Shown here one piece after another: positions 35,154 to 63,623 of a stretch of 64,000 nt of DNA. The DNA is from Mycobacterium sp. UM_WGJ (GTDB lineage: Bacteria; Actinomycetota; Actinomycetes; Mycobacteriales; Mycobacteriaceae): assembly GCF_000455125.1 (NCBI RefSeq), contig NZ_AUWR01000008.1, forward strand, positions 1-64,000, written 5' to 3'. The notes under the pieces were generated by a model. It did no database searches, was not told the DNA's origin, and saw only the letters and a list, made by a program, of their open reading frames with translations. Position 1 is the stretch's first letter; the number at the start of each line of letters is the position of its first letter. The position numbers were made by a program, and so were the translations under genes.

Positions 35154-36676
35154 ACCGATCCTGCCGCGGAACGTGCCGCGGCGGCGAACGCGTCGCCCCG
35201 GGCACCGTAGCCGGCGAACTGGTCGAAGGATGCCCCCGCCGGCGCCAGCAGCACCGTGTCCCCGGGCCGGGCCAGGTCGCGGGCGGCGGCCACCACCGCG
35301 GTCATCACCCGGGAGCCCAGCGTCTCTTTGGACCCATCAGCTACTCGCTTCACATGAGTAACTGGAGACACAGCAGTATCACCCATATCAATATCCTCGC
35401 CCGTCACAACGTGGACGACGGGGACATCCGGTGCGTGTCGTGATAACGCCTTGGCAACCTCGCCGCGATCTCGGCCGATCAATACGGCCCCGGCCAGGTG
35501 AGCAGCGATTCTGGCGACGGTCGGCTCGACCGAGGCCCCCTTGAGCAGCCCCCCGGCCACCCAGATCACCCGCGGGTGGGCCAGCACCGATGCCTCGGCC
35601 GCGTGCGGATTGGTGGCCTTGGAATCATCGACGTAGCTGATCCCGCCGTCGACCACGATCAGTTCGGCGCGATGCCGGCCGACCTGGAACGACGCCAGCG
35701 CCGCGGCGATCGCCTCGGGGGGCACGTCGACGCTGCGGGCCAGCGCGGCGGCCGCCAGCGCATCCAGGATCCCGACCGGGCCGGGCACCGGTATCGACGC
35801 CACCGGGGCCAGCGCCACCTCATCGGCGAAGGCGCGATCGACCAGCATGCCGTCGACCACGCCGAGCTCACCGGGCGCCGGTTCGCCGAGCCGGAAACCC
35901 ACCTTGACCGGGGCAGGCGCGGTGTCGCGCAGCGCCGCGGCACGGGCGTCGTCCATGCCGACCACCGCCACCCGGCCGGCCAGCGCGCGGGCCTTGTCGG
36001 CGGTGTAGGCGGCCATGCTGCCGTGCCAGTCCAGGTGGTCCTCGGCGATGTTGAGCACCGCGCCGGCCTCGGGGCGCAACGACGGGGCCCAGTGCAGCTG
36101 GAAGCTGGACAGCTCCACGGCCAGCTCGTCGGATTCATGCGGCGGTCCCAGCTTCCGCTCTCCTCCGTCGAGCCTCGCTGAACCGCCGGCGGGCTCCCCC
36201 AGCACATCCAGCACGGGGCTGCCGATGTTGCCGCACAACTGGGCACGCCGGCCCGCGGCCGACAACATGGCGTACAACATCGAGGTGGTCGTGGTCTTGC
36301 CGTTGGTGCCGGTCACCACCAGCCAGCGCCGCGGCGGCCCGTAGTGGCCCGCGACGTCGAGCCGCCAGGCCAGCTCCACGTCACCCCAGATCGGCACGCC
36401 GGCCGCTGCGGCGGCGGCCAATACCGGTGTGTCCGGGCCGAATCCGGGGCTGGTGACCACCAGCGCGTAGCCGCCGATCTGCGCGGCGGCTTCGGCGGGG
36501 CTGCAGGTCGTGACGTCGGGGTGGGCGTGCAACGCGGCAACATTGTCGTCGCACAGCGTCAGGTCCAGCTCGAACGGCGCCAACGCGGTGAGGATGGCCC
36601 GGCCGGTGATGCCGGCCCCGGCGACCAGCACCCGCGCTCCCGGAGACAGCGGGGCCAACCCGGCCACCTCAGCCAC
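35150..36676 (-). CDS. murD: UDP-MurNAc-L-Ala--D-Glu ligase MurD, with 19-codon insert
   Basis: MurD adds D-glutamate to UDP-MurNAc-L-Ala. GTG 36676 overlaps the mraY stop; GTG 36667 is an alternative, and neither has a clear ribosome site. The ATP loop [14 protein letters not shown], the ELSSFQLHW and [11 protein letters not shown] segments and [12 protein letters not shown] are intact. At 508 aa it is about 20 longer than M. tuberculosis MurD. The excess matches [20 protein letters not shown] between LGEPA and [10 protein letters not shown], supplied by a 57-bp dispersed element in frame. A low-GC patch lies at about 35318-35412, near the C-terminus. Confidence 0.95.
36131..36187 (-). repeat. 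57-bp palindromic element, copy A, in frame in murD
   Basis: Read on the minus strand it starts GGCGGTTCAGCGAGGCTC and ends GGGACCGCCGCATGAATCC. Arms GGCGGT/ACCGCC, CAGC/GCTG and GCTC/GAGC nest into one long imperfect hairpin. It differs from the copy at 63567-63623 at about five of 57 positions. It is read in frame as [18 protein letters not shown]. Confidence 0.9.
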
Positions 36677-50519: not shown

Positions 50520-52100
50520 ATGTCGAATCCCACCACCCCACCGGTCCCCGGTGCGTCCCGCGACGCCGTCAGCGGCCTATCCCGACTGCGGCAGTTCGCC
50601 GCCGGCGAGCAGGCCGGAGCGGCGTGGCTCGGCTGCCTGGGCGCCCTGCTGATCACGCTGGGCGGCTTGGGCGCCGGCAGCACCCGCATCCAGGACCCGG
50701 TGCTGGACGGGCTGCATCTGTCCTGGCTGCGCTTCGGCCACGGCCTGGTGCTGTCGTCGGTGCTGCTGTGGGCCGGGGTCGCGGTGATGCTGGTGGCCTG
50801 GCTCGGCCTGGGGCGGCGGGTGATCGAGGGCACCGTGAGCACCTACACGTTGATCGCCACCACCGGCTTCTGGCTGGCGCCGTTGTTGCTGTCGGTCCCG
50901 GTGTTCAGCCGCGACACCTATTCCTATCTGGCCCAGGGCGCCCTGCTGCGGGATGGATTCGACCCCTACTTGGTGGGGCCGGTCGACAACCCCAACCCCC
51001 TGCTCGACGATGTCAGCCCGATCTGGGCGGCGACGACGGCACCGTACGGCCCGGCGTTCATCCTGGTCGCCAAGCTCGTCACGATGCTGGTCGGCAACAA
51101 CGTGGTGGCCGGCACCATGCTGCTGCGCTTGTGCATGCTGCCCGGGCTGGCGCTGCTGATCTGGGCCGCCCCCCGGGTGGCCACCCGCGTCGGTGGCAGC
51201 GCGCCCGCGGCGCTGTATCTGGCCGTGCTCAACCCGCTGGTGATCATCCACCTGATGGGCGGGGTCCACAACGAGATGCTGATGGTCGGCCTGGTGATCG
51301 CCGGGATCGCGCTGACCCTCGAACGCCGCCACCTGGCCGGGATAACGCTGGTGGCGCTGGCGGCGGCGGTAAAGGCAACCGCCGCAATCGCATTGCCGTT
51401 CCTGGTGTGGATCTGGATGCGCCGCCTGCAGGAATCCCGCGGTTCAGCGAGGCTCGACGAAGCAGAGCCGAAGCTGGAACCGCGGCAGAAATCCCGCGGT
51501 TATCCGACGGCGGTCGCCTTCGTCGCCGCATCAGCGGTGTCCACGGCGATCATCGTCGCGGTGTTCGCGGTGTTGTCCGCCCTGGCCGGAGTGGGCATGG
51601 GCTGGTTGACCGCGCTGCTGGCCGGCAACGTCAAGATCATCAACTGGCTCACCGTGCCGACCGCGGCCGCCAATCTGATCCACGCCGTCGGCGGATTGTT
51701 CGCCCCGGTCAACTTCTATGCCGTCCTGCACGTCACCCGGATCAGCGGGGTCGTGGTGATCGGGCTAGTGCTGCCGGTGCTGTGGTGGCGGGCGCGGCGC
51801 GACGATCGCGCTGCGGTGGCCGGGATCGCCTGGGCCATGCTGGTGGTGGTGCTGTTCGTGCCCGCCGCCTTGCCCTGGTACTACACCTGGCCACTGGCGG
51901 TGGCGGCCACCGTGGTCCGCTCACCGACCGCGATCGCCGCGATCGCCGCGGCGTCGACCTGGATCATGGTGATCTTCAAACCCGACGGCTCGCACGGTAT
52001 GTACACCTGGCTGCAGGTGATCGGCGCGACCGGATGCGCCGTGTATGCCTGGTACCGGCTGTCGCGGGCCGAACAGGCGCCCGCCCTCGACGCTGCCTGA
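50520..52100 (+). CDS. mptA: Alpha-(1->6)-mannopyranosyltransferase MptA, with 19-codon insert
   Basis: MptA is a GT-C membrane enzyme that extends the mannan core of lipomannan and lipoarabinomannan on the outer face of the membrane, using polyprenyl-phosphomannose. The 526-aa protein has about 13 membrane helices. The first external loop, SRDTYSYLAQGALLRDGFDPYL, carries the Asp-containing GT-C motif. A loop at about residues 305-330, RGSARLDEAEPKLEPRQKSR, is supplied by a 57-bp dispersed element. Its linkage to idsA2, a prenyl-chain enzyme, fits the need for prenyl carriers. Confidence 0.92.
   Translation: MSNPTTPPVPGASRDAVSGLSRLRQFAAGEQAGAAWLGCLGALLITLGGLGAGSTRIQDPVLDGLHLSWLRFGHGLVLSSVLLWAGVAVMLVAWLGLGRRVIEGTVSTYTLIATTGFWLAPLLLSVPVFSRDTYSYLAQGALLRDGFDPYLVGPVDNPNPLLDDVSPIWAATTAPYGPAFILVAKLVTMLVGNNVVAGTMLLRLCMLPGLALLIWAAPRVATRVGGSAPAALYLAVLNPLVIIHLMGGVHNEMLMVGLVIAGIALTLERRHLAGITLVALAAAVKATAAIALPFLVWIWMRRLQESRGSARLDEAEPKLEPRQKSRGYPTAVAFVAASAVSTAIIVAVFAVLSALAGVGMGWLTALLAGNVKIINWLTVPTAAANLIHAVGGLFAPVNFYAVLHVTRISGVVVIGLVLPVLWWRARRDDRAAVAGIAWAMLVVVLFVPAALPWYYTWPLAVAATVVRSPTAIAAIAAASTWIMVIFKPDGSHGMYTWLQVIGATGCAVYAWYRLSRAEQAPALDAA
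51438..51494 (+). repeat. 57-bp palindromic element, copy B, in frame in mptA
   Basis: The 57-bp unit is flanked by a 12-bp direct repeat, AATCCCGCGGTT (51433-51444 and 51490-51501), whose ends run into the element. CCGCGGTTC and GAACCGCGG form perfect outer arms, with GGCTC/GAGCC inside. The outer arms differ from copy A but stay complementary, so pairing has been kept while sequence changed. The encoded peptide is GSARLDEAEPKLEPRQKS. Confidence 0.92.
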
Positions 52101-63563: not shown

Positions 63564-63566
63564 CCG

Positions 63567-63623
63567 AGCGGTTCAGCGAGGCTCGACGAAGGAGAGCCGA
63601 AGCTGGGACCGCCGCATGAACCG
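63567..63623. repeat. 57-bp palindromic element, copy C, downstream of fadD15
   Basis: The unit is bounded by a perfect 14-bp direct repeat ACCGAGCGGTTCAG (63563-63576 and 63620-63633) at the same 57-bp period as copy B. The inner arms GGCTC/GAGCC and outer CGGTTC.../...GGACCG fold it into a hairpin. It lies between the stops of convergent fadD15 and pimB', where it could also work as a bidirectional terminator, though no T-tract is present. Confidence 0.88.

Follow-up and report, generated by a model that had tools for sequence, protein, structure and literature searches.

How does a 57-bp palindrome come to lie in frame inside a mycobacterial protein gene, and does it belong to that gene or has it moved there? 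The question is raised by a stretch within mptA in a window of 64,000 nucleotides, the whole stretch of DNA analysed here. We consider it likely that a mobile but non-autonomous palindromic repeat, found in Mycolicibacter and related mycobacteria, has left one of its copies here. On the comparisons presented below, the best reading is that the palindrome acts like Rickettsia palindromic elements (RPEs) and varies in tandem as MIRUs do.

The unit in mptA and the other copies in the window

The repeat unit occupies positions 51436..51492 of the plus strand, scores 80 bits with our covariance model R1 and comprises 57 bp, or 19 codons, translated as GSARLDEAEPKLEPR inside LQESRGSARLDEAEPKLEPRQKSRGYP; both occupied and empty alleles of the site exist. 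Its host gene (50520..52100, plus strand) owes the name mptA to the original prediction. The open reading frame from 50520 to 52097 runs uninterrupted across the insert, and the host protein matches no Pfam family at E ≤ 1e-5. A 12-bp direct repeat, AATCCCGCGGTT, marks the ends of the unit on the plus strand, with the left copy at 51433..51444 overlapping the left outer arm of the hairpin and the right copy at 51490..51501 aligning with GAAC(G/C)(G/C)CGCGGC, the empty target in other species, at a start-to-start spacing of 57 bp. These positions agree with the description originally given, that of a 19-codon unit inserted in frame in mptA with a repeat at a 57-bp period. Taken alone, the 12-bp repeat is weak evidence, because 8 of 100 shuffled windows also contain at least two AATCCCGCGGTT-type matches (≤1 mismatch); it becomes strong evidence in the context of the genome-wide family.

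The unit folds as nested arms, as had been proposed. The outer arms lie at 51437..51448 (R1 columns 2–13) and 51473..51485 (R1 columns 38–50, with one bulge), and the inner arms at 51451..51455 (GGCTC, R1 columns 16–20) and 51465..51469 (GAGCC, R1 columns 30–34), all on the plus strand. The DNA energy of this two-part hairpin is −18.0 kcal/mol, against −12.06 ± 2.06 in shuffled sequences, of which 3 of 200 equalled it. A second copy, at 36133..36189 on the minus strand, is in frame within murD and appears as a 19-residue gap in alignment to solved MurD chains. A third, at 63565..63621 on the plus strand, lies directly past a gene's stop codon and has a direct repeat of its own, ACCGAGCGGTT. 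Both had been reported by the original prediction and are real, and its remark that the outer arms differ between the mptA and murD copies yet remain complementary is borne out by the letters themselves (CCGCGG/CCGCGG against CGGCGG/CCGCCG).

A hairpin family in the genome and the genus

Far from being limited to three copies, the family is abundant in its own genome. The 69-mer from mptA gave 61 matches there at E ≤ 1 (40 of 83 candidates scored), and R1, built on 71 units (55 from the own genome and 16 from the genomes G022, G069 and G016), found 106 units in the draft at E ≤ 0.1 and 102 at E ≤ 0.001 (150 of 6,474 candidates scored). Copy number may be underestimated, because several draft contigs end in or beside copies; in the own genome (G000) these are the ends of contigs C1, C12 and C28 and the start of C78. 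The 95 units examined fall in 71 loci, with one unit in 52, two in 14 and three in five, so that 19 loci are tandem. Unit length is 57 bp in 79 of the 95 units, and 46 loci consist of a single 57-bp unit.

The own genome also contains a subfamily of 55- and 56-bp units and a tandem pair of 79-bp units (L316–L322 and L323). None of the eight loci with 55-, 56-, 58- or 79-bp units (L316–L323) is in a gene by the codon-usage rule given below, against 13 of the 63 others, numbers too small to conclude selection on frame. A perfect-looking mini palindrome of 23 bases from the unit's left end (G000:C8:69105-69127) is probably a deletion derivative.

Pairing of the hairpin is maintained across the 71 units, with 93.1% of cells paired (91.1% in shuffles) against 24–45% in slid controls, and with 95.2% paired in the outer helix of 12 pairs. 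Two-sided changes in pairs were found in 22 cells, against 8.2 in shuffles, none of 500 being as high, in keeping with the earlier suggestion that the hairpin is conserved. Column pair 3/49 is GC in 51 units, CG in six, AU in three and unpaired in 11, and 32 of the 71 units lack pairing at the inner positions 17/33. This covariation is good but not independent proof, because the units are related and gave the structure, and the same pattern could result if a quasi-palindrome were repaired on its own template.

By a codon-usage rule, 13 of the 71 own loci are in frame within a gene and 58 lie outside genes. Eleven in-gene loci, including murD, are clear; L335, at a contig end, is unreadable, and L343 is a diverged 54-bp copy. 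The clear loci occupy both strands and use three frames of the element (6, 4 and 1 times), and three extra in-gene loci were judged by eye (L033, C8:188747 and C8:291531). The hosts are diverse. Pfam assigns them to Mur ligase, GT87, siderophore-interacting ABC transporter, AMP-binding enzyme, acetoacetate decarboxylase, DsbH-like thioredoxin and LytR-CpsA-Psr families, to a carbon-nitrogen hydrolase with three units, to a Rieske/KshA-type oxygenase (C8:188747) and to a polyketide cyclase (L033); the L030 protein matched no Pfam family. Several host domain profiles span the insert, among them GT87, AMP-binding, acetoacetate decarboxylase and UvrD helicase. A 57-bp copy that leaves the frame intact lengthens the predicted product by 19 amino acids. 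An unusually open reading frame was considered and rejected: four of the six frames through the unit are open, the average for its base composition (shuffle mean 4.25).

Across the genus, 51 of 396 genomes match at E ≤ 0.01, 25 of them with at least eight matches; 14 candidates were scored in each genome, so that the counts per genome are minimum values. Among 298 genomes sampled from the order and searched with filters that lose weak matches, eight matched at E ≤ 0.001, all from this genus (one of 76 genera). A deeper search of 19 genomes, picked for having matched, revealed forms that share the arms but have an extended tip, measuring 66 bp in G199, 87 bp in G411 and 78 bp in several genomes, as well as lengths such as 65, 80 and 88 bp. 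The commonest lengths in these 19 genomes, 57, 66, 78 and 87 bp, are multiples of three. G199 and G411 have amplified versions of their own, of 66 bp (L249, L267, L272) and 87 bp (L253, L268, L271) respectively, and their copies occur in genes for an M18 peptidase, a pyridine-nucleotide oxidoreductase and a phosphomannomutase. A UvrD/PcrA-type helicase gene contains an in-frame copy between DEYQDTNHAQYVLVREL and PPAELCVVGDADQS, at a place that matches by eye in eight genomes; the copy is 78 bp in L250, L254, L256, L259, L261, L262 and L263 and 57 bp in L248, and L248 and L256 are the helicase loci that were translated and domain-scanned. The genome G117 (6.0 Mb), which has an empty mptA and groups with M. 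celatum and M. kyorinense, carries one copy at 97% of the consensus (L246). This single 97% copy outside Mycolicibacter suggests horizontal transfer.

Occupied and empty sites among relatives

Orthologues of the host protein from named genomes group the window with Mycolicibacter (top named match M. heraklionensis, 92%), and the gene tree places it near M. heraklionensis, M. nonchromogenicus and M. icosiumassiliensis. We surveyed 110 mptA loci, the own locus included and 80 of them from named genomes, by counting residues between two conserved anchors. Rather than being present in all mptA orthologues, the stretch is missing from 97 loci, which have an empty form of 37 residues. Occupied alleles measure 56 residues in four loci and 75, 94 and 95 in one each; the first three lengths equal 37 plus 19, 38 or 57, that is, one to three 19-codon units, and the 95-residue allele has one residue extra. 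Of these seven loci, five come from named Mycolicibacter genomes; the other two are the window's own and that of G022, a genome that falls among Mycolicibacter in the tree. Lengths of 41 (two loci), 50, 45, 40 and 35 residues (one locus apiece) account for the rest. Those of 41 and 50 residues, also from Mycolicibacter, look like decayed copies, and the 45-, 40- and 35-residue forms (L131, L125 and L157) show no trace of the element.

Occupancy changes between close relatives. M. heraklionensis Davo (L050) has three units in mptA against one in its close kin G022, and the upstream parts of the two genes are near identical. A tree of the gene part upstream of the insert (33 rows) involves six changes between empty and non-empty states, lumping gain, loss and exchange between strains; at least four are forced by well-supported branches, and the sister pairs L053/L058, L054/L057 and L198/L062 differ in occupancy. 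The mptA protein has two matching loci in Mycolicibacter sp. MYC340 (L058 and L062), about 42 kb apart, one of which covers only residues 36–463. The L198 allele (G069) has a further 12-bp direct repeat beside the element and measures 63 residues, against 59 for a single unit by the same measure.

Beyond mptA, occupied and empty sites were compared in blocks of about 400 kb from the own genome, G022, G069 and G016 and in second blocks of G022 and G069; all contrasts are between genomes, no insertion having been caught within one strain. A single-unit locus differed from an orthologue without a recognisable unit by exactly 57 bp in 20 of 48 comparisons, at nine distinct sites. The other 28 comparisons gave different lengths, for example 56 bp at C8:184294 and 51 bp at murD, and the second blocks of G022 and G069 yielded no additional +57 site. 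Some alleles, those of murD in G069 and of G022 at the own C8:307142 site, look like deletion derivatives. The nine +57 sites include both genes and non-gene places, and the length therefore belongs to the element and does not reflect selection in genes alone.

These alleles also bear on the reading of the 12-bp repeat as a target-site duplication, which stood in part. At four sites (own 291542, own 307142 read through G069, G069 109262 and G069 317349) the right copy has the letters of the target and the left copy shifts toward the family consensus. At own 188758 it is the left copy that equals the target, and the right copy is off by two bases that match the element's end; at own 161305 neither copy matches the sole empty allele, and at own 184294 (56 bp) and G022 295505 they fit the target poorly, these last four being the sites at which the right copy is not exactly the target. 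A clean duplication of 8 or 12 bp was thus not upheld in full, for at several sites the two copies disagree, either mutually or with the target. Nor is the 12-bp identity simply a 12-bp duplication, because the +57 includes the repeat and the left copy departs from the target at the four sites named first: some of the repeat derives from the target and some is like the end of the element itself. In the mptA allele, part of the identity may be coincidence.

In 49 distinct loci (66 with near-copies counted separately; arrays of other spacing excluded), the left and right copies agree more than their columns predict at positions −4 to 0 (z 3.2 to 4.4) and at four further positions (z 2.0 to 2.6). 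The targets match ACCCGGCG at a mean of 5.1 of eight positions over ten sites, with at least five matches in eight of the ten, whereas random genomic words average 2.54 and local words 2.47, and none of 20,000 resamples was as high; this contrast is inflated because the word was picked after the family had been seen. In our reading, the element enters where the DNA resembles its own end, and roughly 3–8 bp are duplicated in the process.

Mechanism, rival readings and known repeat families

Empty alleles, variable copy number and a genome-wide family all speak for the small mobile element that the original prediction had envisaged. In the mechanism that we propose, an enzyme provided in trans would place a source copy into short targets that look like the copy's own end (ACCCGGCG-like), to give an additional 57 bp with a short direct repeat at both ends. 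With a length of 19 codons and four of its six frames open, an insertion in a gene could be translated as an extra stretch. Copies in tolerant places would persist, and the terminal repeats would let the unit multiply or shrink in steps of 57 bp, or be partly lost. The hairpin presumably takes part in the movement brought about by the enzyme, arrays would arise by slippage or recombination, and the occupied proteins probably still work. Two enzyme families were searched for in the own draft genome (116 contigs), Y1 transposase (PF01797) and ISL3-type (PF01610), with no matches to either; the PF01797 search was positive in 5 of 14 control genomes, and an ISL3-type parent transposon was rejected on the PF01610 result. 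A parent transposon with the same ends was also sought by the left-end pattern, which among about 100 places listed matches mostly short units.

A more specific reading, which we put forward tentatively and consider improbable as a whole, is that the mobile hairpin reads its target by pairing and adds whole codons. The right arm GCCG would be complementary to the target core CGGC and the left arm partly built from the target, after which the two arms would be matched to one another, with insertions of 57 bp here and of 66, 78 and 87 bp in sister species. If this were true, disposable loops of 19–29 residues would have been added to housekeeping enzymes genus-wide by a mechanism unlike known transposons.

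The most serious alternative, itself unlikely, makes the repeat a member of the MIRU family, a mobile minisatellite lodging at gene starts or junctions, whose in-gene copies are a side effect. The host group is shared, the unit length is similar and there is tandem variation in both (PMC3914561 for MIRUs); insertion of mobile MIRUs at start codons is described in PMC12548453, and here the unit's right end has CATGA, the C8:291531 copy sits directly past a start codon and most own loci lie outside genes by the codon-usage rule. Against this, the targets are ACCCGGCG-like rather than start-codon-like, and the in-gene copies lie on either strand and in three frames. MIRUs are not known to have dyad symmetry.

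It is very unlikely that the hairpin has instead been kept to serve in regulation or chromosome structure, a role suggested for REP repeats, and has spread by recombination among copies: conservation of the hairpin and the many copies adjoining gene ends would fit such a role, but copies are gained and lost between close relatives and are present within unrelated genes. Still less probable is a REP-like element moved by a RAYT (Y1, IS200-related) transposase. The short imperfect palindrome, its many copies and the presence of some in genes are all REP-like, REPs within genes being reported in PMC3733652, but the consensus is without a GTAG tag, and the RAYT/REPIN explanation was rejected on the lack of a Y1 transposase match in the 116 contigs of the own draft. 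Ordinary coding sequence or a minisatellite confined to mptA, for which the variable repeat number in mptA would speak, is ruled out by about a hundred genome copies and the empty mptA alleles.

If the stretch is, as we think likely, a mobile palindromic repeat, the entry of small palindromes in frame into protein genes now extends to bacteria only distantly related to Rickettsia. Closely related species carry a single gene in empty, occupied, multiplied and decayed versions, and the movement of the element can therefore be studied; it can also be asked how enzymes absorb a foreign segment, examples being the cell-wall enzyme MurD and a UvrD-type helicase. Mycolicibacter could also be typed by the 57-bp steps. 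The open-access literature searched yielded no description of this mycobacterial element, which may be in print in subscription papers, and six pieces of the unit of 13 to 16 letters were absent from it.

Several known systems share features with the repeat. Like MITEs and REP/REPIN sequences, it is short, encodes no enzyme of its own and has inverted arms, those elements being thought to be moved in trans (PMC10969869 and PMC3733652); its terminal inverted repeats are the 12-pair outer helix. It differs from them in that no partner transposon or RAYT was found in the PF01797 and PF01610 searches and its direct repeats are not clean. Repeated stem-loop families are also known from related actinobacteria, and our comparison with them is by description: PMC2267715 lists Myt-1, Myt-8 and Myt-11 of M. 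tuberculosis, the last containing MIRU repeats, and Cod-2 of C. diphtheriae (listed length 32), which occurs in coding sequences in different frames and is said there to resemble the Rickettsia element.

The original prediction was aware of no named counterpart in mycobacteria. MIRUs, described as tandem repeats of 46–101 bp at 41 loci (PMC3914561), are likewise mycobacterial, present at tens of loci, of similar unit length and described as mobile (PMC12548453 and PMC3914561). The present repeat also consists of dispersed units, 55–87 bp long when relatives are included, in variable number (0–3 in mptA), and differs, compared by description, in its hairpin with compensatory changes, its ACCCGGCG-like target and its in-gene copies on either strand. 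RPEs are about 150 bp long and belong to Rickettsia (PMC10969869), and on length and host the mycobacterial repeat is not classed as one. Compared by description, its 57-bp unit (55–87 bp in relatives) is GC-rich, forms tandem arrays and changes in copy number. What it shares with RPEs, as the same paper portrays them, is a dispersed palindrome lying in frame in unrelated protein genes and read, here by prediction, as an extra stretch.
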